From the NCBI GenBank assembly GCA_009920665.1, contig RFZL01000016.1:1-42300 (forward strand): a DNA stretch of 42,300 bases, written 5' to 3'. Source of the DNA: Alphaproteobacteria bacterium (lineage in GTDB: Bacteria > Pseudomonadota > Alphaproteobacteria > Puniceispirillales > Puniceispirillaceae). Shown here piece after piece: positions 4,063 through 42,190 of this stretch. The notes beneath the pieces were generated by a model. The model saw only the letters and a program-made list of their open reading frames with translations. It was not told the DNA's origin and searched no databases. Both the position numbers and the translations under genes were made by a program. The stretch's first letter is position 1. Every line of letters begins with the position of its first letter.

Positions 4063-5961
4063 TCATCCCTGCTTTGGATAGCCCAATGTTTTCAACGCGG
4101 TGGTGATCTCGTCCAGAATGACCGGATCATCGATTGTCGCCGGCATGTTCCATTCGACGCCATCGGCGATTTTCGCCATGGTACCGCGAAGCACCTTGCC
4201 GGAGCGCGTTTTCGGTAGCCGGTCGATGGCAACGACAAGGTTGAATGCGGACACCCGGCCAACCCGCGTTTTCACCAGGTCTGTCGCCTCGGCGCAGACC
4301 TGATCGACCGGCTTGTCACAATTCGGATAGAGGCAGATCAGCCCCAGCGGCAACTGCCCCTTCAACTCGTCGGCAACACCGATGACCGCGCATTCCGCGA
4401 CATCGGGATGTTCGGCCAGTACCTCTTCCAGTTGTCCGGTCGACAGCCGGTGGCCGGCGACATTGATGACATCATCGGTGCGCGCCATGATGTAGAGATA
4501 CCCGTCCTCATCCTTGTAGCCGGCATCGCCGGTCTCGTAATAGCCCGGAAACGTGGTCAGATATTTCGCGATGAAAGCGGCGTCCGCGCCCCATATCGTG
4601 GGCAGGCAGGATGGCGGCAGCGGCAGCTTTACCGCGATGGCGCCAAGTTCGTTCACCGCCCGCACCGCGCCATCCTCGGCCAGGATGTCGATCTCATAGC
4701 CGGGCATCGGCACCGAGGGCGAGCCAAGCTTGACCGGCAGCGTCTCGATCCCAACCGGGTTGGCGCAGATCGACCAGCCGGTCTCGGTCTGCCACCAATG
4801 GTCGATCACCGGCACGCCAAGCTTGTCCTGCGCCCATATGATGGTGTCGGGATCGGCCCGTTCGCCGGCCAGGAACAGATGTGTCAGCGATGAGGTATCA
4901 TAGCTCTTCAGGAACTCGCCATCGGGATCGGCGCGCTTGATGGCGCGGAACGCGGTCGGCGCGGTGAACAGAACCTTGACGCCATGATCGCGGATCACCC
5001 GCCAGAACACGCCGGCATCGGGTGTGCCGATGGGCTTGCCCTCGAACAGCACGGTCGAACAGCCGGCGATCAGCGGCGCGTAGACGATGTAGGAATGGCC
5101 GACAACCCAGCCGATATCGGACGCGGCCCAATAGACGTCACCGGGCCTGACGTCATAGATGTTCGGCATCGACCATTGCAGGGCCACCGCATGGCCGCCA
5201 TTGTCGCGCACCACCCCCTTTGGCTGGCCGGTTGTTCCCGAGGTATAGAGGATATAGAGCGGATCGGTCGCCTTGACCGGCACCGGCGCCACCTCATCGA
5301 CACCTTCATGCGCGGCGTGCCATTCCAGATCGCGCCCGGCGACAAGGTCGGCCGCCAGCGCCGCACGCTGATAGATCACGCAGGAGTCCGGCTTGTGGGA
5401 AGACAACTCTATCGCCTCGTCAAGAAGCGGTTTGTAGGCGACGATCCGGTTCGGCTCATGCCCGCAGGACGCGCTGATGATGGCCTTTGGCGTCGCGTCA
5501 TCGATGCGCTTGGCAAGTTCGGCCGCGGCAAAGCCGCCAAAGACAACCGAATGCACCGCGCCAAGACGCGCGCAGCCCAGCATCGCGACCACCGCCTCGG
5601 GAATCATCGGCATGTAGATGATCACCCGGTCACCGGTGCCAACACCAAGCCGTTGCAGCATGCCGGCAAAGCGCGCCGTGGCGGTCTGCAGCTCGGCATA
5701 GGTCAGCGAGGCCGCGTTGCCGGTAATCGGCGAGTCATAGATGATCGCCTTCTGCGCGCCTCGTCCGGCGGCGACATGCCTGTCAACGGCGTTGTGACAG
5801 GTGTTCAATTCGCCATCGGGAAACCAGCGATGGAAAGGCGGCTGCGACGAGTCGAGCGCCCTTGTCGGTGCCTTGTGCCAGTCTATGGCATCGGCGGCCT
5901 CCATCCAGAACGACGCGACATCGGCCTGCGCCCTGTCATAAAGTTCCTGATAACCCGCCAT
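4063..5961 (-). CDS. prpE: Propionyl-CoA synthetase (acyl-CoA synthetase, AMP-forming)
   Basis: Activates propionate (or another short-chain acid) with ATP and CoA through an acyl-adenylate, feeding propionate catabolism. The 632-residue protein follows the PrpE plan. It has an N-terminal domain with FWMEAADAIDW and PPFHRWFPDGELNTCHNAVDR, the P-loop-like LYTSGTTGQPKGVVRD, GWVVGHSYIVYAPL, IDHWWQTETGW, RTDDVINVAGHRLSTGQLEE and the C-terminal catalytic lysine in KTRSGKVLRG. I chose the ATG at 5961, which has AGGGG upstream and matches the family start; an ATG six codons earlier has no ribosome site. It is transcribed divergently from the rhodanese gene. Acetyl-CoA synthetase is the main alternative, but the overall pattern fits PrpE better. 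Confidence 0.88.
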   Translation of the reverse strand: MAGYQELYDRAQADVASFWMEAADAIDWHKAPTRALDSSQPPFHRWFPDGELNTCHNAVDRHVAAGRGAQKAIIYDSPITGNAASLTYAELQTATARFAGMLQRLGVGTGDRVIIYMPMIPEAVVAMLGCARLGAVHSVVFGGFAAAELAKRIDDATPKAIISASCGHEPNRIVAYKPLLDEAIELSSHKPDSCVIYQRAALAADLVAGRDLEWHAAHEGVDEVAPVPVKATDPLYILYTSGTTGQPKGVVRDNGGHAVALQWSMPNIYDVRPGDVYWAASDIGWVVGHSYIVYAPLIAGCSTVLFEGKPIGTPDAGVFWRVIRDHGVKVLFTAPTAFRAIKRADPDGEFLKSYDTSSLTHLFLAGERADPDTIIWAQDKLGVPVIDHWWQTETGWSICANPVGIETLPVKLGSPSVPMPGYEIDILAEDGAVRAVNELGAIAVKLPLPPSCLPTIWGADAAFIAKYLTTFPGYYETGDAGYKDEDGYLYIMARTDDVINVAGHRLSTGQLEEVLAEHPDVAECAVIGVADELKGQLPLGLICLYPNCDKPVDQVCAEATDLVKTRVGRVSAFNLVVAIDRLPKTRSGKVLRGTMAKIADGVEWNMPATIDDPVILDEITTALKTLGYPKQG

Positions 5962-6063
5962 TGATCTGTCCCCTGCCATCCGGCGTCAGCTTTGAGCGCC
6001 ATCCATATACTAGCCATAAATTGATGACCGGCAAAAGCCCTGCAGGCGAGCCCCTTCTCCTGT

Positions 6064-6081
6064 TATCACAAGTCAGTGATA
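6064..6081. promoter_or_regulatory. Inverted repeat in the prpE/rhodanese divergent region
   Basis: TATCAC and GTGATA are separated by six bases in the 236-bp space between two divergent genes. The size and symmetry suit a dimeric regulator. No regulator gene is adjacent, and the only evidence is the symmetry. Confidence 0.3.
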
Positions 6082-6150
6082 GCATGCGGCACACACCCTC
6101 CGCATCTTGGTCAGGAAGGTATCTACCGATATAAGGGACCCATCGACATT

Positions 6151-6178
6151 CCGGGCAAATGAAACCGGGCAAATGAAA
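6151..6178. repeat. Perfect 14-bp tandem duplication upstream of the rhodanese gene
   Basis: The unit CCGGGCAAATGAAA occurs twice in direct succession, ending 19 bases before the rhodanese start, so it lies in its 5' untranslated region or promoter. It looks like a recent slippage duplication. Confidence 0.85.
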
Positions 6179-6197
6179 TCGACAGAAGGGGACAGAC

Positions 6198-6590
6198 ATG
6201 CCGGTTACCCAGCACGTCGCCGACATGATTGCCTCGGCGCGGTTGCTGATCGATTCGATCGGTGCCACCGAAGCCGCAGAATTGCAGCGGCTTGATGCCG
6301 CCATCCTGATCGATCTTCGTGATATACGCGAACTGCAACGGGCTGGAACGGTGCCGGATGCCTTTCATGCGCCGCGTGGCATGCTGGAATTCTGGGCCGA
6401 CCCTGCAAGCCCCTATCACAAATCGGTCTTCCAAACCGACGGGAAACTGATCCTGTTCTGCGCCTCCGGGTTGCGTTCGGCGCTGGCGGTAAGAACATTG
6501 CAGGAGATGGGCATGGACAATGTCCTCGACATGGAAGGTGGCTTTACCGAATGGAAGATGCAGGGCCTGCCAGTTGAATTCCTGACCTGA
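6198..6590 (+). CDS. Single-domain rhodanese-like sulfurtransferase
   Basis: Small cytoplasmic protein of 130 residues made of one rhodanese domain. AILIDLRDIRELQRAG is the conserved strand with its aspartate and arginine. The active-site loop CASGLRSA carries the persulfide-forming cysteine, followed by LQEMGMDNVLDMEGGFTEW, a typical rhodanese C-terminus. AGGGG lies about eight bases before the ATG. It stands alone, divergent from prpE and convergent with the NylB-like hydrolase, so its sulfur acceptor is unknown. The family ranges from true thiosulfate sulfurtransferases to sulfur carriers for tRNA or cofactor synthesis. Confidence 0.88.
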   Translation: MPVTQHVADMIASARLLIDSIGATEAAELQRLDAAILIDLRDIRELQRAGTVPDAFHAPRGMLEFWADPASPYHKSVFQTDGKLILFCASGLRSALAVRTLQEMGMDNVLDMEGGFTEWKMQGLPVEFLT

Positions 6591-6615
6591 CGCCAGGCAG
6601 GAATCGCCGCCATAA

Positions 6616-7803
6616 TCAGCCAAGCGCCCGCGACGTTGCCCGCAGCATTTCGATCAGCGCCGGCCGGTTATCCGGGTCGCTCGGCGCATCCTGCGAGGCA
6701 AGATGCACAATGACCACTTCACGGGCCGGGTTGATCCACAGCCACTGGCCATGGATGCCGATGCCGCAGAATTCGCCGTCAGCCAGGCCTGTCTGATACC
6801 ATTTCGAGCGATAGCATCCATCCGGGAAATGGCGCGGACCGTCGGCCTGTGCCAGCCACGCCGCGCGCGTGTCATGCGTTTGCATGTCGGTGATCCAGGC
6901 CTCCGGTACCACCTGCCGGGCGCTGGCGGCACCGCCACAACGAACCATCTCGCCAAGCCGGGCAAGGTCAGGCGCGGTCAGGCAGATGCCGCCGGCAACG
7001 CGCGGCGCGCCAAAGGTATCGAGGGTGATATAGGCTTCGGTGGCAATCCCGGCCGGCCGCATCAGATGGCGAGACATCAAGGCCGCAAAATTGTCCCCTG
7101 CCACGCGCTCGACAATCCAGCCGAGAAGATCGCTATGCGGCGAGCAATAATGGAACCGCTCGCCATGCGCGCCATCCGAGGCCGGCAGACGTGCAAGGAA
7201 GCTGCGCAGCCCCTCACTCGACGCGCCCTCTTCCGGCGGGTTCCAGGCGGCCGCCCGGCGATAGGCCATGAAGATGCCGTCCTCATCGAGATATTCCTCG
7301 CTGAAGGCCGATGCGACCGTCATGTCGAGCACATGCCGCAGCGTCGCCCCCTCATAGGCGCTTCCCCCTGTTTCGGGAAGGTAGTGCGTCACCGGTTGGT
7401 CCGGGTCGAGAACGCCTTCACCGACAAGAACACCGACAAGCAGCGCGGTCAGTGATTTCGAGATGGAGAAGATGATGTGCTGCCGGTCCGGCGCGCCCCA
7501 ACCGCCATACCACTCATGAACCAGCCGCCCACGATGCAGCACGACAAATGCGTCGGTGGCGTTCGCCCGCAGAAAATCGGCAAGGCCGGTACCGGCATCA
7601 TCCACCGTCAGGCCGGACAGATCCCGGCGTGTCTCGGGCAGCGCCTTCATGTTGGCGGCAGGCGGCATCGGCGCGGTTGGCAGCAACTGCCGGACATGCG
7701 AGAAGGACCAGCGGCAGACGCCCGGGCCCCGCCAGTTGGCCACCGTCACCTGCCTGTTGGGCGTTGGCGGCGCCCCCTGCATGAGATGCATCACATCACT
7801 CAT
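6616..7803 (-). CDS. Serine hydrolase of the class C beta-lactamase / NylB-like family
   Basis: Predicted 395-residue serine hydrolase with the DD-peptidase/beta-lactamase fold. The catalytic S-x-x-K is SISK at residues 113-116 (in IIFSISKSLTA). The second motif is YCS at 219-221, taking the place of Y-x-N. A glycine-rich strand GIGIHGQWLWI near the end fits the third motif region. Motif spacing is close to 6-aminohexanoate-dimer hydrolase (NylB), better than to true beta-lactamases, so esterase or amidase activity is more likely than antibiotic resistance. There is no convincing signal peptide, so it is probably cytoplasmic. It is transcribed alone, convergent with the rhodanese. The start has only a distant AGGG; a methionine four codons later is possible. 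Confidence 0.82.
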   Translation of the reverse strand: MSDVMHLMQGAPPTPNRQVTVANWRGPGVCRWSFSHVRQLLPTAPMPPAANMKALPETRRDLSGLTVDDAGTGLADFLRANATDAFVVLHRGRLVHEWYGGWGAPDRQHIIFSISKSLTALLVGVLVGEGVLDPDQPVTHYLPETGGSAYEGATLRHVLDMTVASAFSEEYLDEDGIFMAYRRAAAWNPPEEGASSEGLRSFLARLPASDGAHGERFHYCSPHSDLLGWIVERVAGDNFAALMSRHLMRPAGIATEAYITLDTFGAPRVAGGICLTAPDLARLGEMVRCGGAASARQVVPEAWITDMQTHDTRAAWLAQADGPRHFPDGCYRSKWYQTGLADGEFCGIGIHGQWLWINPAREVVIVHLASQDAPSDPDNRPALIEMLRATSRALG

Positions 7804-23888: not shown

Positions 23889-25409
23889 CTAGAGGCCGAG
23901 TTTCGGGACGTTGCGCGGCACCGTGGCGAAGGCAACATTGCGGGTTTCCATGTAGAAATCAAAGGACCAGTCACCGCCATCACGCCCGATCCCCGACTCC
24001 TTGGTGCCGCCGAACGGGGTTGGCAGATGCCGCACATTTTCCGAATTCACCCAGATCATGCCGGCATCCATCCCGTCGCTGAAGCGTAGCGCGCGCGTCA
24101 CGTCATTCGTCCACAGATATCCGGCAAGACCGTAGGCCACATCATTGGCGAGGCCAAGCGCCTCGTCCTCGTTGTCGAACGGGATTGCCGTCAAAACGGG
24201 GCCGAAAATCTCCTCGCGCGCCACCCGCATGGTCTGGCTGGCGCCGGTGAACAAAGTCGGCGCGACATAGCAGCCGGCCGCAAACTCGCCCCCCATGACC
24301 TTCTCGCCGCCGGCGGCAATCGTCACGCCCTCGGCGCGCGCCACATCGAAATAGGACAGCACCTTCGCCTCGTGATCGGGATGGATCAACGGGCCAACCA
24401 CAGTGTCTGGATCCAGCGGATGACCAACCTTCAGGTGGCGCGCCTTGTCGGCCAGAACGGCGACGAAGTCATCATGGATCGAGGATTCGACCAGAACGCG
24501 GCTTGACGAGGTGCAGCGCTCACCATTCAGCGACCAGATCATGAAGGCGGCGGCATCAGCGGCGCGTTCCAGATCGGCATCGGCAAAGACCACTACGGGG
24601 TTCTTGCCGCCAAGCTCGAAATGGACGCGTTTCAGCGTGTCCGCCCCCTGGCGCATGATCAGCTTGCCGGTCGCGCTCTCGCCGACAAAGGCGATGGCCT
24701 TGATCGCCGGGTGTTCGGTCAGCGCGCGGCCCGCCTCCTCACCAACACCGTTTACAAGGTTCCAGACCCCCGGCGGCAGCCCGGCCTCGGCGGCGATATC
24801 CATCAGGATGCGTGCCGTCACCGGTGACAGTTCGGCCGGCTTGTGGACAACGGTGCATCCGGCGGCCAGCGCCGGCGCAATCTTCCATGTCGACAGCATG
24901 AAGGGGGTGTTCCAGGGTGTGATCACCCCGACCGGCCCGATCGGCCGCCGCGAGGTCACGTTCAACTGGTTGGCGGCGTGAAGGCTCTGCCCGTCGCGGG
25001 CATAGGGCGCCTTGTCGGCGAAAAAGCGGAAATTGTCAGCCCCGCGGAGTGCCGCCTTCGACATGAAGCGCAGCGCCTGGCCGGTGTCGATACATTCCAG
25101 AAGCGCGATTTCCTCGGCCCGCGCGACAATGCCGTCGGCGATCCGGTGCAGGATGGCGCGCCGCGCCGCGCCGTCCATGTCACGCCAGGCGGGAAAGGCA
25201 TCGCTTGCCGCCCTCGCCGCATCATCAATATCCGCGGCATCCCCCCGCGCCACCGTCGCGACCCGGGCCATGTCGATGGGCGACACACTCTCAAACGTCG
25301 CGCCGGACCGCGCCGGACAGTCCTGCCCGCCAATATGATTGAGGATCGGCCTGTCGCGGAAAGGCGCCAGAAACGCATCCGCCCTTTCAAGATTGTCAGC
25401 GAGGGTCAT
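23889..25409 (-). CDS. hpaE: 5-carboxymethyl-2-hydroxymuconate semialdehyde dehydrogenase
   Basis: NAD-dependent aldehyde dehydrogenase, 506 residues, oxidising the HpaD ring-fission product. TPWNTPFMLSTWKIAPALA (Asn167), the Rossmann segment FVGESATGKLIM, catalytic Glu265 in FELGGKNP and nucleophile Cys299 in NGERCTSSSR are all present. PFGGTKESGIGRDGG is near the end. The start at 25409 has GGAG at good spacing; an in-frame ATG at 25454 has none and lies in the presumed operator region. First gene of the leftward hpa operon, divergent from hpaF-hpaR. Confidence 0.91.
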   Translation of the reverse strand: MTLADNLERADAFLAPFRDRPILNHIGGQDCPARSGATFESVSPIDMARVATVARGDAADIDDAARAASDAFPAWRDMDGAARRAILHRIADGIVARAEEIALLECIDTGQALRFMSKAALRGADNFRFFADKAPYARDGQSLHAANQLNVTSRRPIGPVGVITPWNTPFMLSTWKIAPALAAGCTVVHKPAELSPVTARILMDIAAEAGLPPGVWNLVNGVGEEAGRALTEHPAIKAIAFVGESATGKLIMRQGADTLKRVHFELGGKNPVVVFADADLERAADAAAFMIWSLNGERCTSSSRVLVESSIHDDFVAVLADKARHLKVGHPLDPDTVVGPLIHPDHEAKVLSYFDVARAEGVTIAAGGEKVMGGEFAAGCYVAPTLFTGASQTMRVAREEIFGPVLTAIPFDNEDEALGLANDVAYGLAGYLWTNDVTRALRFSDGMDAGMIWVNSENVRHLPTPFGGTKESGIGRDGGDWSFDFYMETRNVAFATVPRNVPKLGL

Positions 25410-25539
25410 AAGGACTCCAGAAATCTGTCTGGCCGCAAGATTGACTTTGACCATGGCTGTGATTTAATTCACATGTTAAGTAAATGATCATGGAAATCAT
25501 CTGGCAAGTCAATAGCCCCCGCAACACAGGACCCCGTCC
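25410..25539. promoter_or_regulatory. Divergent hpaE / hpaF-hpaR control region with candidate MarR operators
   Basis: This 130-bp space is noticeably more AT-rich than its surroundings in the middle. It contains inverted repeats TGTGA-6-TCACA (25458-25473) and ATGAT-7-ATCAT (25484-25500), plus the palindrome core ACATGT flanked by TTAA boxes (25464-25479). The adjacent hpaR encodes a MarR-type repressor, so these are plausible HpaR sites controlling both directions. Exact promoters are not resolved. Confidence 0.5.
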
Positions 25540-25944
25540 ATGGCGCATCTGAGTTTTGAATATTCGGCCAATCTGGAAGCCAATCTGGATCTACAGGCCT
25601 TCTGCGATCATCTGCGTGACGCGATGGTTGGGTCGAGTGTGTTCCCGCCTGGCGGGATCCGCGTTCGTGGTACACGGGTTGATGTGGCCACCATTGCCAG
25701 CGGCGAGGAGGAGCTGGGCTTCATCGACATGACGCTTCGTATGGGCATGGGACGCGGGGAGGATGTCAGGGTGGCGGTGACCGAGGCAATCTATGCGGCG
25801 GCCGAGTCCTGGCTGAAGCCGCAGATTGGCAGCCGCCCTTTCGCCCTGTCGCTTGAGGTGATGGAGATCGACTCCCGCTTTTCCGAGAAGCGGTTCAACA
25901 CAATCCACCAGTTCCTAAAGAACAGCGAGGCAGGGCGTGGCTGA
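25540..25944 (+). CDS. hpaF: 5-carboxymethyl-2-hydroxymuconate isomerase family protein, lacking N-terminal proline
   Basis: Tautomerase-superfamily protein, 134 residues, expected to isomerise 5-carboxymethyl-2-hydroxymuconate. The central GIRVRGTRVDVATIASGEEE and IDMTLRMGMGRGEDVR segments align well with E. coli HpaF (CHMI). The family's catalytic base is Pro1, exposed after methionine removal. Here the second codon is GCG, so the mature N-terminus would be Ala. It is one base from CCG. AGGA lies about nine bases before the ATG at 25540, making the start secure. It overlaps hpaR by eight bases. The enzyme may be impaired, or the reaction may be covered by HpaG or occur spontaneously. Confidence 0.85.
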   Translation: MAHLSFEYSANLEANLDLQAFCDHLRDAMVGSSVFPPGGIRVRGTRVDVATIASGEEELGFIDMTLRMGMGRGEDVRVAVTEAIYAAAESWLKPQIGSRPFALSLEVMEIDSRFSEKRFNTIHQFLKNSEAGRG

Positions 25945-27439: not shown

Positions 27440-28363
27440 TCACACCATACCACCCGGCTTGCCGCCATGCCGATAGGGTATGACCGAAATATTCCGCCCG
27501 ATCTGGATTGTCATCAGGTCCTCGGCGACCACCACCGTGCCGTCATATTCGCGCGCAAGTTCCGTCATGACATCATTGATCGGCACCGGGTCGGGAGGCA
27601 GCAGCACAAGATGCGTCAGCATGGCAAGCTTTGGCCGTGTCTGCGCGAAGACCCGGCCGACCTCGGCCGGCGTGGCGTGGTGGTCAATCGCCACCTTCAC
27701 CGCCGGAAAGTTGGCCAGCGTTGCGGCGCTCGCCGCCGCCACCTCATGAACGAAGACATCCGCGCCCTGCGCCTGCGCGATCAGATTTTCATTGTAGCGC
27801 GTGTCATGGCTGTGAACGAAGACACGCCCGCCATATTCGACCCGGAACCCGTAGGCCGGGCGGATGAACTCCCCATGATCGACCTCGATGGCGCGGATCA
27901 CCAGCCCGTCGCGGTCATAAACGACGCCCTCGGTATATTCATGCGGGATGATCCGCATATGCTCGGGGTCGATTTCATTGTCGGCCACGCGGATGGCACG
28001 ATCAGGGCTGGTGGCCAGCCAGGCGCCATCGGCAATGTCACGGACTCCCGGCGGGCCATAGACCTGCAGCGGCGCGTTACGACCGCCGAATTTCTGCGGA
28101 ATGCTGCCGGTCATCGCCATGTCGAAGAGGCCGGCATAATGATCGGAATGATAATGCGAGATGATGATTGTATCGACGCAGCCAACCCCGAGCCCGATCT
28201 GTGACAGGCGAATGGCCGTCCCGCGGCCACAATCAATCAGGACACGCTGGTCCCCGGCCTCGATCAGCGTCGAGGTGCCAAAGGCGTTGATCTGCGGGTT
28301 GGGAATACCGGTACCGAGAAGCGTGACCTTGAGAAGGTCGTCCTGCGAAGTCCTGTCAGTCAT
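27440..28363 (-). CDS. Metallo-beta-lactamase-fold hydrolase, ribonuclease Z/arylsulfatase-like
   Basis: Zinc hydrolase of 307 residues. LKVTLLGTGIPNPQ opens the fold, and SHYHSDHYAG gives the metal site His70, His72, Asp74, His75. FVHSHDTRYNENL and DVFVHEVA resemble the ribonuclease Z branch, with IDHHATPAEVGRVF following. The exosite arm expected for true tRNA-processing RNase Z is not obvious, so it may hydrolyse a small ester. The start at 28363 (MTDRT) has GGGGA eight bases upstream; an ATG two codons earlier overlaps that site. Leader gene of a pair with the epimerase, divergent from the thiolase. Confidence 0.82.
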   Translation of the reverse strand: MTDRTSQDDLLKVTLLGTGIPNPQINAFGTSTLIEAGDQRVLIDCGRGTAIRLSQIGLGVGCVDTIIISHYHSDHYAGLFDMAMTGSIPQKFGGRNAPLQVYGPPGVRDIADGAWLATSPDRAIRVADNEIDPEHMRIIPHEYTEGVVYDRDGLVIRAIEVDHGEFIRPAYGFRVEYGGRVFVHSHDTRYNENLIAQAQGADVFVHEVAAASAATLANFPAVKVAIDHHATPAEVGRVFAQTRPKLAMLTHLVLLPPDPVPINDVMTELAREYDGTVVVAEDLMTIQIGRNISVIPYRHGGKPGGMV

Positions 28364-28540
28364 TGTCATCCCCGATTCAACGCGCCCATGGCAGATGCCG
28401 CCACAAGACAGCACGACTACCCCCGGCGCGCAAGCCCCGATCACACGGATCAGGCGCGCCCTTCTTTTTTGGTGGCGTCAGCAGCACCCCACCGGTAATC
28501 ATGCCACAAGTTGAAACAATTACAGCCAGTGAGAGTGATG

Positions 28541-29749
28541 ATGTCCGATGTGTTTATCTGTGATGCCGTGCGCTCGCCCATCGGCCGGTTCGGCGGCGCG
28601 CTGTCCGGGGTGCGGGCGGACGATCTTGCGGCGCACCCGATCAGGTCGCTGGTGGCGCGCCATCCCGACCTTGACTGGACAGCCGTGGATGAGGTGATCC
28701 TTGGTGCCGCCAACCAGGCCGGCGAGGATAACCGCAATATCGCGCGGATGGCCCTGTTGCTGGCGGGCCTGCCACAGAGCGTGCCGGGGATCACCCTGAA
28801 CAGACTGTGTGCCTCGGGTATGGAGGCCGTCATCGCCGCCGCCCGCATGATCAGGGCCGGTGAAGGCAGCCTTGTCATCGCCGGCGGGTCGGAAAGCATG
28901 AGCCGCGCGCCCTTTGTCATGCCGAAGGCGGATAGCGCCTTTTCGCGCAAGGCCGAAATCTATGATACCACGATCGGCTGGCGGTTCGTGAACCGGCAGA
29001 TGAAGGCGCTTTACGGCACCGATTCCATGCCGGAAACGGGCGAGAATGTCGCCGAAAGATGGAAGGTCAGTCGGGCCGATCAGGATGAATTCGCGCTACG
29101 CTCACAGCAGAAGGCCGGTGCCGCGATGGCCAATGGCCGGCTGGCCGCCGAAATCGCCCCGGTAGTAATTCCGCAACGCAAGGGCGACCCGGTCACCGTC
29201 AATACGGATGAACATCCGCGTCCGCAAACCACCCTTGAACAGCTTGCCAAGCTGCCAACACCATTCCGCGACGGCGGGTCCGTCACCGCCGGCAATGCCA
29301 GCGGCGTGAATGACGGGGCCGCCGCCATGATCATCACCGGCACCGATGCCATCCGCACGCATGGGCTGACGCCGCGGGCGCGAATCATCACCGCCGCCGC
29401 CGCCGGTGTTGAACCCGCCATCATGGGCATCGGGCCGGTGCCGGCGACACAGCGTGCGCTGGCACGGGCCGGCCTCGCCATCGGGCAGATGGATGTGATC
29501 GAGATCAACGAGGCATTTGCCGCGCAGGGTCTTGCCTCGATGCGCGAGCTTGGAATGGCGGATGATGATGACCGGGTGAATCGCAATGGCGGCGCCATCG
29601 CGCTTGGCCACCCTCTGGGGATGAGCGGAGCCAGACTGGTGATGACGGCCACCGAGGAATTGCAGCGACTGGATGGCGCGCGTTATGCACTGTGCACGAT
29701 GTGCGTCGGCGTCGGTCAGGGAAGTGCGGTCATTCTGGAAAAATGCTGA
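28541..29749 (+). CDS. pcaF: Acetyl-CoA acyltransferase (beta-ketoadipyl-CoA thiolase type)
   Basis: Thiolase of 402 residues. Cys90 in LNRLCASGMEAV is the acyl acceptor; EINEAFAAQ, NGGAIALGHPLG and the second cysteine in CVGVGQGSA complete the site. MSDVFICDAVRSPIGRFGGA and FVMPKADSAFSR fit the PcaF/PaaJ branch, which releases succinyl-CoA and acetyl-CoA from 3-oxoadipyl-CoA. The start has GAGAG five bases upstream; an extra ATG directly before it is equivalent. The frame stays open nine codons further up. A general 3-ketoacyl-CoA thiolase is the alternative. No other beta-ketoadipate genes are in the window. Confidence 0.82.
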   Translation: MSDVFICDAVRSPIGRFGGALSGVRADDLAAHPIRSLVARHPDLDWTAVDEVILGAANQAGEDNRNIARMALLLAGLPQSVPGITLNRLCASGMEAVIAAARMIRAGEGSLVIAGGSESMSRAPFVMPKADSAFSRKAEIYDTTIGWRFVNRQMKALYGTDSMPETGENVAERWKVSRADQDEFALRSQQKAGAAMANGRLAAEIAPVVIPQRKGDPVTVNTDEHPRPQTTLEQLAKLPTPFRDGGSVTAGNASGVNDGAAAMIITGTDAIRTHGLTPRARIITAAAAGVEPAIMGIGPVPATQRALARAGLAIGQMDVIEINEAFAAQGLASMRELGMADDDDRVNRNGGAIALGHPLGMSGARLVMTATEELQRLDGARYALCTMCVGVGQGSAVILEKC

Positions 29750-33531: not shown

Positions 33532-33692
33532 GATGAAATGGTCACACCTGCATCCAGTTGCCTGCCGTACCCGTCATGGCGCTACCACGCTCACATGACC
33601 TTACCAGCCACCAAAACGGCTTGTTGGCGGAGTTGGTTGCCGCTTGACGAGATTGTCTGTAGCGTCGGGTGACATCGAAAGGAAGTCAAGCC

Positions 33693-35042
33693 ATGGAATG
33701 TTGCGGCCCGGGATATGCAAGCCCGAGCGAGGCAATGAAAGCCCCGCGCGAGGAAATCCTCTACACCATTGCGATTTATACCGGCACCGGCATCCAGAAA
33801 CCGGACTATCTGTGCACCATCGACGCCGATCCGGCCAGCCCGACCTATGCGCAGGTCATCCACCGTCTGGAGATGCCGAATATCGGCGACGAGCTGCACC
33901 ATATGGGCTGGAACGCCTGTTCATCCTGCTTCGATGACGGGTCGATGAGCCGCAGCTATCTGCTTGTGCCGGGCGTGCGATCATCGAACATCTACATCGT
34001 GGATACCGCCACCGACCCGCGGGCACCGCGTCTTCACAAGACCATTCAGGGCGCGGACATCAAGTCGAAGACCGATCTGTCAGCGCCTCACACCGTGCAT
34101 TGCCTCGGCTCGGAGATCATCATCTCGATGCTTGGCAACGCCAAAGGCGAGGCCCCGGGCGGCTATCTGCATCTCGACCGGGATTTCGAGATTCTGGGAC
34201 GCTGGGAAAATTCGATGGGTGACATCCCGTTCGGATATGATTTCTGGTACCAGCCACGCCACAATGTGATGGCGTCATCGGAATGGGCGGCGCCAAACAC
34301 TTTCATGCCGGGCTTCGATCTTGAGGAGGTCGGCCACCTGAAATATGGCCGCCGGATCCATCTCTGGGATTTCGAGAAGAAGGAGCCGAAGCAGACCTTC
34401 TATCTCGGTGAGGACGGGTTGATTCCGCTCGAGGTGCGCTTCCACCATGATCCGGACAGCACGCACGGCTTCTGCGGTGCCGCCCTGTCATCCAACATCA
34501 TCCATTGGTGGCAAGATGGCTCTGGCGACTGGCAGTGGGAAAAAATCATCGATGTCGATAACGAGCCGCATCCGGAATGGCCGATCCCGGTTCCCGGGGT
34601 GATCACGGTGATCCTGCTGTCGATGGATGACAGGTTCCTGTATTTCTGCAACTGGCTGCATGGCGATATCCGGCAATATGACATCTCCGACCCGCATAAC
34701 CCGAAACTGACCGGCCAGGTCTGGATGGGCGGGCTTTTAGGCAAGGCGCCCGAGGTCAACGGCCTGCAGATCACCGGCGGGCCGCAGATGATCCAGCTGT
34801 CGCTTGATGGCAAGCGGCTCTATGTCACCACCTCGCTGTTCAGCACCTGGGACAACCAGTTCTATCCCGAGATTCGCACCAATGGCGGCTGCATGCTGAT
34901 GGTGAATTGCGATACCGAAAATGGCGGCATGGAAATCGATCCCGATTTCGCCGTTGATTTCGGCAAGGAGCCCAACGGCCCGTCACGGTGCCATGAAACC
35001 CGCTATCCGGGCGGCGACTGCACAAGCGATATCTGGCTATGA
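33693..35042 (+). CDS. mtoX: Selenium-binding protein family methanethiol oxidase
   Basis: SBP56/SELENBP1-family protein, 449 residues, expected to oxidise methanethiol with O2 and water to formaldehyde, H2S and H2O2. MECCGPGYASPSEAM is the family N-terminus. GWNACSSCFDD holds the conserved Cys pair; SAPHTVHCLG, RHNVMASSEWAAPN, FHHDPDSTHGFCGAAL and LYVTTSLFSTWDNQFYP contain the histidines thought to bind copper. AAGGAAG precedes the ATG at 33693. No signal peptide is visible, although some bacterial MtoX proteins are periplasmic. The TGA overlaps the ferredoxin start (ATGA). The catalytic assignment comes from family knowledge. Confidence 0.87.
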   Translation: MECCGPGYASPSEAMKAPREEILYTIAIYTGTGIQKPDYLCTIDADPASPTYAQVIHRLEMPNIGDELHHMGWNACSSCFDDGSMSRSYLLVPGVRSSNIYIVDTATDPRAPRLHKTIQGADIKSKTDLSAPHTVHCLGSEIIISMLGNAKGEAPGGYLHLDRDFEILGRWENSMGDIPFGYDFWYQPRHNVMASSEWAAPNTFMPGFDLEEVGHLKYGRRIHLWDFEKKEPKQTFYLGEDGLIPLEVRFHHDPDSTHGFCGAALSSNIIHWWQDGSGDWQWEKIIDVDNEPHPEWPIPVPGVITVILLSMDDRFLYFCNWLHGDIRQYDISDPHNPKLTGQVWMGGLLGKAPEVNGLQITGGPQMIQLSLDGKRLYVTTSLFSTWDNQFYPEIRTNGGCMLMVNCDTENGGMEIDPDFAVDFGKEPNGPSRCHETRYPGGDCTSDIWL

Positions 35043-35419
35043 CGACGATCACGCTGGCCAATCGGGGCAACACCACTTTTGAGGTCACCGGCAGGCGCCC
35101 GCTTCTTGACGAGCTGCGCGATCAGGGGGTCGACCTGCCCTTCGGATGCAAATATGGCGGCTGCATCACCTGTGCCGCGAAATTGATCGAAGGCGAGATT
35201 GACCAGCGGTCACAGGTCGCCCTGAACAACAGGCAGATTGCCGACGGATATGTTATCCTGTGCGTGGCGCGGGCCAGGACGGACTGTGTTCTGGAAATCG
35301 GCACCGAAAGCCATGACCGCCTCTACCGCAACCCGTTTCTTGATCCGCTGGAGCCGCATGAGCTGAAGGCCGACATCGCCACCGCAAAGGAGACCCCGGA
35401 TGGGCTACATGAATCATGA
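35039..35419 (+). CDS. Plant-type [2Fe-2S] ferredoxin
   Basis: Small electron carrier of 126 residues. CKYGGCITCAAKL gives the C-x4-C-x2-C cluster motif and the fourth cysteine is in YVILCVARARTDC. The beta-grasp start TTITLANRGNTTFEV fits. A C-terminal tail of about 35 residues, rich in acidic residues, has no cluster ligands. Its ATG overlaps the mtoX stop and its end overlaps the next gene by 20 bases, so all three are translated together. No reductase is nearby. Association of a ferredoxin with a methanethiol oxidase is unusual; it may serve as redox partner or in maturation, which is inference. Confidence 0.87.
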   Translation: MTTITLANRGNTTFEVTGRRPLLDELRDQGVDLPFGCKYGGCITCAAKLIEGEIDQRSQVALNNRQIADGYVILCVARARTDCVLEIGTESHDRLYRNPFLDPLEPHELKADIATAKETPDGLHES

Positions 35420-36736: not shown

Positions 36737-36801
36737 TCCTCGTTTCGCCTTCAGTCTTCAAAAGCTATGCTGCATGCCTCAGTTTGCAGAAAGGAACACC
36801 C

Positions 36802-37560
36802 TTGCTCGACGACGCGTCCATTGCAGAAACAGATCACGCCGCCGACAGCATTGCGGTGTCGGTCTGGCGCGGTGACGCCAGTGGCGGCACCTGGGAGACG
36901 TTCACCGTCCCGCGGCAACCAAGCCAGACGGTCCTGGACATCGTCACCTGGATTCAGCAGGAGGCCGACCCGACGCTGACCTACCGGTTTGCCTGCCGTG
37001 TCGGCATGTGCGGGTCCTGCGCCATGATGGTGAATGACGAGCCGCGCTGGACCTGCCGCACACATGTCGGGCGGGTCGTGAAGGACGGGGCCATCAGCAT
37101 CGCCCCGCTTCGCAACCTGCCGGTGATCAAGGACCTTGCCACCGATATGGACCCGTTCTTCGACAAATGGGTGAAGGCCGAGGCAACACACCATCCATCG
37201 GCCGGCCGGCATGATGATTTCGCCGCCGTGCTGCCGGATGATGAACAGCGCGTCGAGGCCAGCGCCGGCATCGAATGCATCAATTGCGCGGTCTGCTATG
37301 CGGCCTGCGATACGGTGGCCGGCAATCCGGACTATCTTGGCCCGGCGGCGCTGCAACGTGCCTGGACGCTGTATAATGATTCCCGCGATGATGCCGGCGG
37401 TGCCATCCTCGACGCCGTGTCGGCGCAGGGCGGATGCCACAGCTGCCATTCGATGGGAAGCTGCACGCATTACTGCCCGAATGATCTCGACCCGATGGGG
37501 GCAATCGCCGGACTGAAACGTGCCACGGCGAAACGGTTCTTCCGGCGGGGGCGCGGCTGA
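36802..37560 (+). CDS. sdhB: Succinate dehydrogenase/fumarate reductase iron-sulfur subunit
   Basis: Electron-transfer subunit carrying three clusters, about 252 residues. [2Fe-2S]: CRVGMCGSC and the later Cys in RWTCRTH (about 65, 70, 73, 85). [4Fe-4S]: CINCAVCYAAC (about 159-169). [3Fe-4S]/last set: CHSCHSMGSCTHYCP (about 212-225). No ATG fits. The TTG at 36802 has AAAGGA eight bases upstream and is preferred over a TTG six codons earlier. It passes electrons between the flavoprotein and membrane quinone. First gene of the operon B-anchor-anchor-A-fumarase; its stop overlaps the next start. Confidence 0.88.
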   Translation: MLDDASIAETDHAADSIAVSVWRGDASGGTWETFTVPRQPSQTVLDIVTWIQQEADPTLTYRFACRVGMCGSCAMMVNDEPRWTCRTHVGRVVKDGAISIAPLRNLPVIKDLATDMDPFFDKWVKAEATHHPSAGRHDDFAAVLPDDEQRVEASAGIECINCAVCYAACDTVAGNPDYLGPAALQRAWTLYNDSRDDAGGAILDAVSAQGGCHSCHSMGSCTHYCPNDLDPMGAIAGLKRATAKRFFRRGRG

Positions 37561-37892
37561 TGCTGGATTTCCGTCTTTATATGGCACAGCGCCTGTCCGC
37601 GCTGATCATGGCACCGCTGGTGGTCGGCCATCTGGCGGTGATGATCTATGCCGTTCAGGGGGGCCTGAGTGCCGGTGAAATCCTTGGGCGGACACAGGGC
37701 AGCCTGTTCTGGGCGCTGTTCTATGGCGGGTTTGTTGTCGCGGTGTCGGTGCATGCCGCGATCGGGCTTCGTACCGTCATCTCGGAATGGACACGGCTTC
37801 GCGGCGGCATGTTGAATGGCGTTGCCATGGCGATTTTCGCCACCCTTCTTGTCATGGGGGGACGCGCCGTTCTGGCCGTCACACTGGTATGA
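37560..37892 (+). CDS. SDH/fumarate reductase cytochrome b-type membrane anchor, first copy
   Basis: Membrane protein of 110 residues with three hydrophobic helices. It carries the SdhC-like pattern R11-x-S-A, then His24, then His65 in HAAIGLR; the two histidines are candidate heme-b ligands. The ATG overlaps the sdhB stop (TGATG). The next gene encodes a protein with the same spacing of these residues, so the two anchors look paralogous. It would hold the catalytic subunits on the inner membrane and bind quinone. Naming it C or D is not possible by eye. Confidence 0.8.
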   Translation: MLDFRLYMAQRLSALIMAPLVVGHLAVMIYAVQGGLSAGEILGRTQGSLFWALFYGGFVVAVSVHAAIGLRTVISEWTRLRGGMLNGVAMAIFATLLVMGGRAVLAVTLV

Positions 37893-37903
37893 GGGGTGGG
37901 GAT

Positions 37904-38272
37904 ATGAGAGGTGGCGATCCGAACGCCGCCACCCGCCGTCCGGTACGCGGCCATGCATTATGGTACGCCCATATCATCCACCGGGTCTCTGGAATCGCGC
38001 TGGCGCTGTTTCTGCCATTGCATTTCTGGGTGCTGTCATTGGCACTGACCGATGCCGCCCGGCTCGACAACTTTCTGGCCTTCACCGAACTGCCCTTCGT
38101 GAAGGTTGCGGAATTCGGCCTTGTGTTCCTGCTGGCCCTTCATCTGTTTGGCGGCATGCGCCTGATGGCGCTGGAATGGCTTCCCTGGCGGGCACCTCAC
38201 AAGACGCTGGCTGCCGGCACGCTGGCCGTCTCGGCCTTTGTATCCGGCGTGTTTTTCCTGCAGGCCATATAG
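37904..38272 (+). CDS. SDH/fumarate reductase cytochrome b-type membrane anchor, second copy
   Basis: Membrane protein of 122 residues with three hydrophobic helices. HRVSG at 26-30 is the SdhC signature; His40 and His80 (HLFGGMR) follow at the same distances as in the preceding gene. The start at 37904 is favoured over an ATG five codons earlier that overlaps the preceding stop, because AGGGGTGGGG lies just upstream of 37904. It pairs with the preceding subunit as the quinone- and heme-binding membrane part. Confidence 0.8.
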   Translation: MRGGDPNAATRRPVRGHALWYAHIIHRVSGIALALFLPLHFWVLSLALTDAARLDNFLAFTELPFVKVAEFGLVFLLALHLFGGMRLMALEWLPWRAPHKTLAAGTLAVSAFVSGVFFLQAI

Positions 38273-38293
38273 GCGCAACGGAGAGGATTACCG

Positions 38294-39981
38294 ATGACAG
38301 CCACGCTTGAACGCCATGATACGGATATCCTGATCCTGGGGTCCGGCGGCGCCGGCCTGTTCGCCGCGCTGCACGCCCAGCAGAGCGCGCCGGAAGGCAC
38401 GAAAATCACGCTGGCGGTGAAGGGATTGATCGGCAAATGCGGCTGCACCCGCATGGTCCAGGGCGGCTATAATGTGGCGCTTGGCGGTGGCGACACGGTC
38501 GAGCGGCACTTCATGGACACCATCAATGGCGGCAAATGGCTGCCTGACCAGGATATGGCATGGCGGCTTTGCAGCACCGCGGTGGAACGCATCCATGAGC
38601 TGGAAAACGAGGTTGGCTGCTTCTTTGACCGCAATGAAGACGGCACGCTGCACCAGAAGGCCTTTGCCGGCCAGACCGCCGACCGCACCGTCCATAAGGG
38701 CGACCTGACAGGCATCGAGATCATCAACAGGCTGATGGAACAGGTGCTTCGCCGCCCGGTCGAAAAGCTTCAGGAGCACCGCGCCATCGCGTTGATCCCG
38801 GGGTGCGAGGGTGACGGGCTGTCAGGCGTGCTGATGATCGACATGCGCCGCGGTGTCTTCCGGCTGGTGCGCGCCAAGGCGGTGCTGATGGCGACCGGCG
38901 GCGGGCCGACCATGTATCGCTACCACACGCCGTCCGGCGACAAGACAATGGACGGGCTGGCGATGGCGCTGAGGGCCGGATTGCCGCTGCGCGACATGGA
39001 GATGGTGCAGTTCCACCCGACCGGCCTGCTGGCCGGCGACAATACCCGCATGACCGGCACCGTTCTTGAAGAAGGGCTGCGGGGGGCTGGCGGCATTCTG
39101 CTGAACGGGTCCGGCGAACGCTTCATGTTCGATTATGACGACCGCAGGGCGGGGTGCATATCGAGATGGCGCATCTCGGGCCCGACAATGTCAGCCGCAG
39201 ATTCGCCGGCATGGTCAAACGCTGCGCCGATTGCGGGTTCGATCTTGCCGCTGGCCGGGTCGAGGTGGTGCCGACAGCGCATTACTTCATGGGCGGGGTT
39301 GTCGTCGACACCGACACGCGGACCGCCCTTCCCGGCCTCTATGTGGCGGGTGAGGATGCCGGCGGCGCGCATGGCGCGAACAGGCTTGGCGGCAATGGTG
39401 TCGCCAATTCGACCGTCTATGGCGGCATCGCCGGCGATGTGATGGGGCGCGATATCGCCGGTCAGTCAACGCTTCGTGAGCCTGACGAGGCGGTGCTGTC
39501 CGCCGAAATCGACCGCACCATGGCACCGGTTGGCCGTAGCGGCGGCAATATCCATGAATTGCGGCGCGCGCTGCAGGATGTGATGTGGGATGATGTCGGG
39601 GTGATCCGCACCGCCGGCGGCATGACGCGGGCGCTGGACCGGCTTGACGGGATCGAGTCCGCATTGATGGAGACAGGTGTTGCGGCTGGCAATCTTGCTT
39701 TCAATCTGACCTGGCATGACTGGCTGAACATGCGATCACTGGTCGATATCTCGAAAGTCATCACCCGCGCCGGGCTGGCCCGCGAGAATTCACGCGGCGC
39801 GCATTACCGCGAGGATTTCCCCGAGGTCGGCGCGCTTGAAGGCTCATATTTCACGCAGGCGCAGATGGCCGGCGAGGATGTCGAGGTGACGCGCGCACCG
39901 GTTGCCTTTACCATTGTCAAACCGGGCGAGAGCATCCTGCCGGACGGCGCGCCAGACACGCTGGTCGCGGCGGCGGAATGA
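38294..39981 (+). pseudogene. sdhA: Succinate dehydrogenase/fumarate reductase flavoprotein subunit, broken by internal deletion and frameshift
   Basis: Catalytic FAD subunit whose reading frame changes at about 39142-39148. The left part (from ATG at 38294, AGAGGA upstream) has the FAD loop ILGSGGAGLFAALHA, KCGCTRMVQGGYN, FHPTG with catalytic His241, and GERFMFDYDDR. The right part, in another frame, resumes at PQGGVHIEMAHLGPDNV and continues with HYFMGG and GANRLGGNG to the stop at 39981. Family members have about 25 residues between these parts, including the G-E-R-A-T-R-D-x-V-S-R segment with a catalytic arginine. That segment is missing, and the lost length is not a multiple of three. 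As written, the left frame would end at 39442 with nonsense residues. Either the gene is inactivated or the sequence has an assembly or sequencing error here. Confidence 0.85.
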
Positions 39982-40019
39982 CGGCCGGAGCAGACGTCGC
40001 AGCAACAGGGGGACAGGCG

Positions 40020-40982
40020 ATGATCCCAATCGACATCATCGAATCCACGGCGAATGAGCTGATGGCGAAGGCCGCCATCGAGATCCCGGATGATTACCTG
40101 ACCGGCCTGAAAGCCGCGGCGGACAGCGAGGATGGCGATCTGTCCTCCTTTGTGCTTCATGCCATGCTGGAGAATTATGACGCCGCGAAAGAGGATGGCC
40201 GCGCCATGTGCGGCGATACCGGCACGCCGCGCTGGTATGTGAAGATGGGCAACGAGGCGCGCATCGAAGGCGGTCCGGTGGCGCTGGAGGCGGCGCTGCG
40301 CCGCGCCACCGCCGACGCGACAGCCGCCGTGCCGCTGCGCCCGAACCGCGTGCATCCGCTGTGGCGGACCGACCATAACAACAATGTCGGGATCGGCGCG
40401 CCGGAGATTGAATATGCGTTCGAGCCTGACGGCGAATGGATCGATCTGATCACCGTCCATAAGGGTGGGCTGTTCGGCACCGATTACCGGATGCTGTTCC
40501 CGTCTGACGGGATCGAGGGGATCAAGCGGTTCTATCTCGACAGTCTGGTGGCGTTCGGCAAGCGGGGTCTCGCCTGCCAGCCGGCGATCATCGGGATCGG
40601 ACTTGGCGGCACCAAGGATGCCTGCATGGTGCTTGGCAAGCGGGCGGCCTGCCTTCGCACCGTTGGCGATCGCAACAGCGATCCGCGCATCGCCGAGATC
40701 GAGGACGAGTTCAAGGAGCTTGGCAATTCCATCGGCATGGGGGCGATGGGGTTTGTCGGCAAACATATGGTGATCGACTGCAATATCGAGGTCGGATACT
40801 GCCATACCGGCGGTATGCAGATGTCGGTCCATGCCTTCTGCCTGTCATCGCGCCGCGCGGTGGCGCGCGTTCATGCCGATGGCCGGGTCGAATATCGCAC
40901 CGACCCGGACTGGTTCACCCCCTATCAGCGACGGGAGACGGTCGAATGGGAACTTCCCGCAAGCCACGCGAAATCCGCCTGA
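40020..40982 (+). CDS. Class I fumarate hydratase, alpha subunit
   Basis: Iron-sulfur hydro-lyase subunit of 320 residues, TtdA/class I fumarase type. DGRAMCGDTGTPRWYVKMG contains the first cluster cysteine; CQPAIIGIGLGGTKDACMVL and GYCHTGGMQMSVHAFC carry the others. HPLWRTDHNNNVGIGAPEI is substrate-binding. The ATG at 40020 has an AGGGGGA site; an earlier ATG overlapping the sdhA stop has none. It overlaps the beta gene by 37 bases. It hydrates fumarate to malate, next to the SDH that makes fumarate. Tartrate dehydratase and mesaconase are related alternatives. Confidence 0.86.
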   Translation: MIPIDIIESTANELMAKAAIEIPDDYLTGLKAAADSEDGDLSSFVLHAMLENYDAAKEDGRAMCGDTGTPRWYVKMGNEARIEGGPVALEAALRRATADATAAVPLRPNRVHPLWRTDHNNNVGIGAPEIEYAFEPDGEWIDLITVHKGGLFGTDYRMLFPSDGIEGIKRFYLDSLVAFGKRGLACQPAIIGIGLGGTKDACMVLGKRAACLRTVGDRNSDPRIAEIEDEFKELGNSIGMGAMGFVGKHMVIDCNIEVGYCHTGGMQMSVHAFCLSSRRAVARVHADGRVEYRTDPDWFTPYQRRETVEWELPASHAKSA

Positions 40983-41578
40983 GCACGACGCCGAGCGCGG
41001 AGGCCGTCGCCGAGCTGCAGCTTGGCGATATCGTCTATCTCGACGGGCTGATCTATACCGCGCGCGAGGGCGTCTATATGCGGGCGCTTGAGGACCAGGC
41101 CAACATCCCGATGGACCTGCCGTCACAGAGCGCGGCGAATTTCCACTGCTCGCCAGCGGCCAATATCCGCGCCGATGGCAGTTTCGATCTTGGCGCGGTC
41201 ACCGCCACCGCATCCTTCCGCTTTGCCAAATGGCTTCCCGAATGGATGGCGAAGACCGGCGCCAGGCTGATCATCGGCAAGGGCGGTATGTCATCGAAGG
41301 ATTACAAGGATTATTTCGTGCCGAATGGCGCTGTCTATCTGTCGACGGTGGGCTATGGCACCGGCGCGCTGCTGGGGCGCGGGGTCGAGACGGTCGAGGC
41401 CGTCCATTGGCATGAGGAGCTTGGCATCGCGCAGGCCATGTGGGTGATCAACTGCCTGTTCGAGCGCGAGAACGCCAAGATCGCGGCCAATCTGGAAAAA
41501 CTCTATGAAGGCACCCGCCCGGCGGTGCTGAAACGCCTCGGCGAGACGGATGACCGAAGCGACGAGATGATTGGGTAG
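40946..41578 (+). CDS. Class I fumarate hydratase, beta subunit
   Basis: Swivelling-domain subunit of 210 residues, TtdB-like. LQLGDIVYLDGLIYTARE, the catalytic-loop GKGGMSSKDY and PNGAVYLSTVGYGTGALLGR match the C-terminal domain of class I fumarases. GGGAGA lies seven bases before the ATG, which is inside the alpha gene, so the subunits are translated together. It is the last gene of the SDH-fumarase operon and is followed by a hairpin. Confidence 0.87.
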   Translation: MGTSRKPREIRLSTTPSAEAVAELQLGDIVYLDGLIYTAREGVYMRALEDQANIPMDLPSQSAANFHCSPAANIRADGSFDLGAVTATASFRFAKWLPEWMAKTGARLIIGKGGMSSKDYKDYFVPNGAVYLSTVGYGTGALLGRGVETVEAVHWHEELGIAQAMWVINCLFERENAKIAANLEKLYEGTRPAVLKRLGETDDRSDEMIG

Positions 41579-41690: not shown

Positions 41691-41948
41691 TTAGCGGTAC
41701 ACAGCCCCACGGTGGCCGATCTTAATGATCAGGATCACGACCCCCTCATTGTCGATGGCGTAGATCACGCGATACCTCCCCACCCGGAGCCTGTACGCGT
41801 CTCGGCCCGTCAGGCTCCTCGCGTTTTGGGGCAGTGGGTATTCAGATAGGCCCTCAATGGATTTAAGAATGCGCTCGACGTCGTGGCGGGGGATGCCCCT
41901 CAAGTCTTTCTTTACCGAGGGCTTGAATGCAATTTTATAGGATGCCAT
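41691..41948 (-). CDS. RelE/ParE-family toxin
   Basis: Small basic protein of 85 residues with the RelE fold. YKIAFKPSVKKDLRGIP, LPQNARSLTGRDAYRLRVG and RYRVIYAIDNEGVVILIIKI are typical of RelE mRNA interferases, which cut mRNA on the ribosome. The arginines of the YRLRVGRYRVIY strand are the usual catalytic and RNA-binding positions. The ATG overlaps the antitoxin gene by 14 bases, so it is translated after it. Local base composition is more AT-rich than the surrounding genes, suggesting acquisition. Confidence 0.9.
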   Translation of the reverse strand: MASYKIAFKPSVKKDLRGIPRHDVERILKSIEGLSEYPLPQNARSLTGRDAYRLRVGRYRVIYAIDNEGVVILIIKIGHRGAVYR

Positions 41949-42168
41949 CGGCCTTCAGCGACTTAACAAAGTCAGCATAACTAATGCCTGGCTCACTTGT
42001 GCGGGCATCATAATCGGCAATGTCCTCTGCGTCCTCAGCCGTGAGCATTGCAATGGCCTCATTGACAATTTCAGAAATGGATCGGTTTTCCTCTGCGGCC
42101 TTGAGGCGGAGCGCCTTGTGCATGTCGGGGTCAAAGTAGATGGTCGAACGCTGTGAGAGTTGCGGCAT
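41935..42168 (-). CDS. Ribbon-helix-helix/RelB-type antitoxin
   Basis: Antitoxin of 77 residues. The N-terminal part STIYFDPDMHKALRLKAAE followed by NRSISEIVNEAIAM is a ribbon-helix-helix DNA-binding domain. The acidic C-terminal half (EDAEDIADYDARTSEPGISY) should wrap and neutralise the toxin. AAGGAAA lies just upstream of the ATG. The gene precedes and overlaps the toxin gene, and its promoter lies in a long palindrome, the expected autoregulatory site for antitoxin and toxin-antitoxin complex. Confidence 0.9.
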   Translation of the reverse strand: MPQLSQRSTIYFDPDMHKALRLKAAEENRSISEIVNEAIAMLTAEDAEDIADYDARTSEPGISYADFVKSLKADGIL

Positions 42169-42190
42169 TGTCTATTTCCTTAATTTAAAA

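Follow-up and report, generated by a model that had tools for sequence, protein, structure and literature searches.

Does the flavoprotein gene of this complex-II-like operon carry a genuine deletion, and what would the cell have lost with it? The stretch of DNA analysed, referred to here as the window, comprises 42,300 bases and is the whole of contig C58, part of an assembly of 2.69 Mb in 214 contigs (99.15% complete, 2.49% contaminated). The operon lies at 36784–41578, in the order frdB, anchor, anchor, flavoprotein, fumA, fumB. Its features are as follows.

36784–37560, + strand: iron–sulphur subunit, frdB/sdhB-like, intact (TIGR00384, 186.5 bits, cut-off 88)
37560–37892, + strand: membrane anchor subunit 1 (Sdh_cyt), intact (PF01127, E = 1.7e-07)
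37904–38272, + strand: membrane anchor subunit 2 (cytochrome b556 type), intact (PF01127, E = 5.4e-13; TIGR02970, 54.8 bits, cut-off 52.3)
38294–39145, + strand: first part of the flavoprotein, 284 aa, SdhA/FrdA-like, with the FAD-binding domain and part of the capping domain (Pfam FAD_binding_2, E = 1.6e-47)
39142–39146, + strand: deletion junction, 73 bases gone, with the shared repeat CCGC at 39142–39145 (spacing counts, junction alignment)
39146–39442, + strand: out-of-frame tail of the first ORF, 98 aa, ending in TGA (ORF translation)
39154–39981, + strand: second part of the flavoprotein in a shifted frame, 275 aa from GTG, with the end of the FAD-binding domain and Succ_DH_flav_C (PF02910, E = 4.8e-25; PF00890, E = 7.1e-16)
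39978–40982, + strand: class I fumarase-like alpha subunit (fumA), intact (PF05681, E = 1.4e-65)
40946–41578, + strand: class I fumarase-like beta subunit (fumB), intact (PF05683, E = 2.3e-16)

The sequence-only reading had called the rest of the operon intact, and this holds: frdB, both anchors, fumA and fumB have open frames, and each matches its family. The ATG of fumA overlaps the stop codon of the shifted-frame flavoprotein segment (ATGA), an overlap not kept in the related genome G001, where the placed fumA ORF starts at an inner ATG (40020). The two downstream genes match the families of two-subunit class I fumarase/L(+)-tartrate dehydratase (TIGR00722/PF05681 and PF05683) above the cut-offs, whereas the alpha subunit falls below those of PRK06246 (fumarase) and PRK08230 (tartrate dehydratase), and the beta subunit below that of TIGR00723. 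A further difference from class I fumarase is that fumA and fumB of the window share an operon with a complex-II-like enzyme.

Other genes flank the operon. Upstream, the stretch 33669–35419 has a selenium-binding-protein gene (SBP56, PF05694), of the methanethiol oxidase type, with a small ferredoxin-like gene; the ORF at 33669–35039 could be placed from G002 and not from the stretches of G001. At the contig end, the stretch 41691–42170 has a ParE-type toxin gene (PF05016) on the minus strand, next to a short reading frame judged by eye to be a putative antitoxin.

A 73-base gap in the flavoprotein gene

Reading frames and comparison with relatives were used to define the break. The ORF at 38294–39442 is in frame with its relatives through residue 284 (FMFDYDDR, ending at 39145), after which it adds 98 out-of-frame, unrelated residues and stops at TGA 39440–39442. 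The family sequence (GGVHIEM...) resumes in another frame, where the first GTG is at 39154 and the stop at 39979–39981. Against the homologous protein of sister genome G002 (P0002), the first part is 98% identical over residues 1–285 and the second part 93% identical over residues 307–586. The jump out of frame that had been read from the letters at about 39142–39148 was thus borne out both by the ORF frames and by the relatives.

The size of the gap was obtained from the spacing between residue 284 and the GTG at 39154. This is 8 bases in the window gene, as against 81 bases in 78 of 80 named loci and 84 in the other two (L078 and L094), with all 80 in frame; it is likewise 81 bases in each of 19 loci fetched from relative genomes. 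The named loci are 80 out of 527, and the fetched set overlaps with them (L033 and L114, for example, are one gene); L027 and L028, each only half a gene at a contig end, were excluded from the counts. The window gene is therefore short by 73 bases at 39142–39146, within the 70–77 bases previously proposed, and 73 is not divisible by three. The same deletion was seen in none of the 80 named loci and none of the 19 fetched loci, the two sets overlapping as stated.

About 24 residues (GERATRDxVSR...) are absent as a result, close to the 25 or so that the sequence-only reading had counted, and the catalytic arginine of the RD-x-V-S-R segment is among them. In the sister genomes, with which that reading had proposed a comparison, the protein runs through GERATRDIVSRAIYDEMRK.. 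and continues to ..TPQGG as in the window. Segment and frame are thus retained in all 80 named loci and missing from the window gene, as expected of a pseudogene.

In the sister genes, CCGC is found at both ends of the deleted segment, as had been suspected from the junction; if the ancestor resembled G002, the shared bases are ACCGC, five in all. Random deletions of 40–110 bases in two sister genes shared at least 4 bases in 2.5% and 2.9% of cases, and at least 5 bases in 0.9% and 1.1%. The repeat thus speaks mildly for slippage or end joining. No hairpin between the repeats was apparent, the sister segment folding barely better than its shuffles (z = −0.98; 31 of 200 folded at least as well). 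Replication slippage or microhomology end joining between the two CCGC copies would produce an out-of-frame deletion of 73 bases. Pseudogenes formed by short-repeat (microhomology) deletion are a known kind in bacteria, and the window gene shares with them an out-of-frame lesion, 4–5 junction bases, a single lesion and an accessory gene. It has no feature that sets it apart from them, and it is known from a single genome assembly.

A divergent accessory relative of complex II

The flavoprotein was compared with SdhA/FrdA of complex II, with which it shares an operon context of an iron–sulphur subunit and two anchor subunits. Of the 80 named loci, 72 have all five partner genes in order, and 8 are without at least one partner in the stretch covered. 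By the record titles of the 80 loci out of 527, the operon is spread over many Alphaproteobacteria; it also occurs in some other groups. Among 18 plasmid records, 13 name the flavoprotein "FAD-binding protein" and 1 "fumarate reductase", and 4 have no annotation or feature for it; in an archaeal plasmid record it stands without adjoining anchors and fumarase genes.

Intact relatives keep the residues that align with H232, R287, H355 and R390 of Escherichia coli FrdA (80 of 80), whereas the window copy has lost the R287 segment. Two other positions, mapped by hand on the alignment, differ from FrdA across the whole set. At codon 51, all 80 loci have cysteine (GKCGCT; GKCGCTRMVQGG) in place of H44, the covalent FAD-binding histidine of FrdA, and FAD is perhaps free in this Cys-bearing family, or perhaps bound through the cysteine. 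At codon 259, all 80 have glutamate where FrdA has T244, the threonine that binds the substrate.

The arginine of the RDxVS motif aligns with chain position 288 of E. coli FrdA by a manual count along the printed alignment; H355 falls at 356, so position 288 corresponds to R287 in the numbering of PMC5773532. R287 of E. coli FrdA is described there as the proton donor to fumarate (PMC5773532). Within RDxVSR, x is the only position that varies among the 80 named loci. With the R287-aligned residue lost, 98 foreign residues added and the C-terminal domain out of frame, the window flavoprotein is, we infer, dead. Both gene pieces scored below the cut-off of every NCBIfam family among the matches listed (25 of 29 and 25 of 27), as gene pieces would be expected to do in any case. 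Effects may extend downstream: translation now stops 536 bases ahead of fumA, so both fumarase genes may be less well expressed, and any coupled translation at the ATGA overlap may suffer from the earlier stop.

At least 38 of the order's 136 genomes carry the gene, the window's own included (E 1e-100), as do 23 of the 43 high-quality ones. The first figure is a lower bound: many of the genomes are incomplete, and G049, whose copy lies broken up at contig ends, is not counted. Among the 37 other matching genomes, the segment is not covered in G034 and partly covered in G115; the deletion is absent from the rest. Copies in G112 and G119 had been flagged as broken, with one TGA each, and were rejected as such, the alignments being stop-free over residues 5–583 and 20–586.

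A second sdhA had also been suggested as something to look for, and an intact gene for the ordinary succinate dehydrogenase flavoprotein is present in the same genome on contig C138. It encodes 596 aa and contains TRSHTVAAQGG; the adjoining ORFs are anchor-like and iron–sulphur-like (named by eye, the iron–sulphur one also by a 32% match). The window flavoprotein is a divergent accessory paralogue and not the ordinary SdhA of the TCA cycle. Loss of the operon should be tolerable, because the operon is accessory in the order.

Real deletion or assembly fault

The sequence-only reading had left the choice between a very recent inactivation and an assembly error. The evidence leans to a real deletion in the sequenced DNA, and we think it probable that a very recent loss of 73 bases inactivated the accessory complex-II-like flavoprotein in the cells whose DNA was assembled. 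The recent loss is favoured by the short repeat and by the lack of any other break or intact allele; an artefact keeps an appreciable, smaller share of the probability. ORFs from G001 and G002 were placed on the window (40 and 43, respectively, including some antisense shadows of genuine genes), and among these no interior frame break was found besides that in the flavoprotein. Other multi-frame flags were raised at 23892–25611 against G001, and at 5838–7071, 25148–25478 and 28363–29746 against G002. Two of these (5838–7071 and 25148–25478) were rejected as antisense to better-matched genes, and the other two (23892–25611 and 28363–29746) as 5′ extensions past the likely start.

In the competing account, the break is an assembly artefact, or a low-frequency variant picked by the assembler while most cells carry the intact gene. 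We regard this as rather unlikely, and several observations fit it. The deletion comes from one fragmented assembly of 214 contigs, with its junction 3.1 kb away from a contig end; it is absent in the 37 other matching genomes wherever the segment is covered; and finding 4–5 shared bases by chance would be only mildly surprising. Short repeats are also places where chimeric molecules can join. Against an artefact, the placed ORFs show no other interior frame break, and neither the missing segment, nor an intact allele, nor a second intact copy was found on any other contig of the assembly. A repeat of 4–5 bases is moreover far shorter than assembler k-mers and too short to mislead a normal assembler, so the junction most probably existed in some molecules, with no implication for the share of cells that carried it.

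Substitution counts bear on the age of the event. Since the split from G002, with G001 as the outgroup, the window branch has gained 8 non-synonymous changes against 45 synonymous ones, and the G002 branch 10 against 44, so that the excess of amino-acid changes expected of a pseudogene under relaxed selection is not seen on the window branch. Pairwise rates agree with these counts, except in the comparison with G009 (85 codons, second half), where 3 non-synonymous differences for the window and 1 for G002 are too few to weigh. Had the gene been dead for longer than a few per cent of the branch, we estimate, a non-synonymous excess would be visible. Its absence means that the event is very recent or that the population still has the intact gene; relaxed selection is unseen in either half, and purifying selection continuing to the present, as under the artefact or minor-variant account, is equally expected to give this result.

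Two further accounts would leave a working product. In one, the gene is a tolerated split, its second part restarting at GTG 39154, and the two pieces have some function that differs from the original reaction. The second part has 275 open codons, AGGGCGGG stands just upstream of the possible restart codon, six of seven aligned genus sisters have GTT or GTC in place of this GTG (G011 has GTG), and the lack of a non-synonymous excess would also fit. The catalytic arginine, however, is in neither piece, the first piece carries 98 foreign residues, the single codon difference may be chance, and recency accounts for the missing decay, all of which makes a functional split very improbable. In the other, programmed frameshifting or another form of recoding fuses both frames into a working protein, as the open second half might allow. 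Programmed frameshifting was rejected: it could not restore 73 bases and an arginine that are missing from the gene, and the site is shared by no relative examined. We give recoding of any kind almost no credence.

Operon neighbourhood and a possible sulphonate pathway

The surroundings of the operon in other genomes were examined for hints of its role. Of the 80 named loci (L033–L112), 36 have a gene of the TauE/SafE family (sulfite exporter) at most 3 kb from the fumB end; among the 54 loci with full flanks, 32 do. The number expected is about 0.02–0.03 per locus, calculated from 5–9 genes per 3.4–5.3 Mb in 12 hand-picked genomes, with kinship among loci uncorrected. YeiH-type exporters occur at 7 of the 80 loci and SoxC/SorA-like proteins at 19 (weak matches of about 31% identity). 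Six of the 18 plasmid records were inspected, and all six carry a TauE/SafE gene within the stretch viewed. In the relatives of the window, a TauE gene is present at only 4 of the 19 loci; no TauE, YeiH or SoxC/SorA-like gene was found in the window, and the seven TauE genes of its own genome are all on other contigs.

This neighbourhood suggests a sulphonate-degrading, sulfite-releasing role for the complex-II-plus-fumarase operon. The enzyme with cysteine in place of histidine would oxidise a sulphonated C4 dicarboxylate, for example sulfosuccinate to sulfofumarate. Hydration of sulfofumarate by the fumarase-like enzyme would then give an unstable hydroxysulphonate that would yield oxaloacetate and sulfite. 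Sulfosuccinate is proposed here from chemistry. The glutamate that replaces T244 near the substrate speaks for a substrate other than succinate; its negative charge would not obviously suit a sulphonate, which counts against the sulphonate reading, as do the lack of such neighbours in the window, the low count at the relatives' loci (4 of 19) and the placing of the genome's own TauE genes on other contigs. Among the matches listed, titles and abstract openings in the literature did not describe the operon, and "sulfosuccinate" did not occur in them. A role for the broken gene in a sulphonate-degrading pathway for which no description was found, an ability that this strain would just have lost, is offered as a tentative idea, more doubtful than probable.

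The deletion itself is ordinary, a further case of recent gene loss. It calls for caution where metabolism is predicted from the genome, because the operon might otherwise be scored as present. The more interesting lead is the operon family, whose neighbourhood points to sulfite handling.
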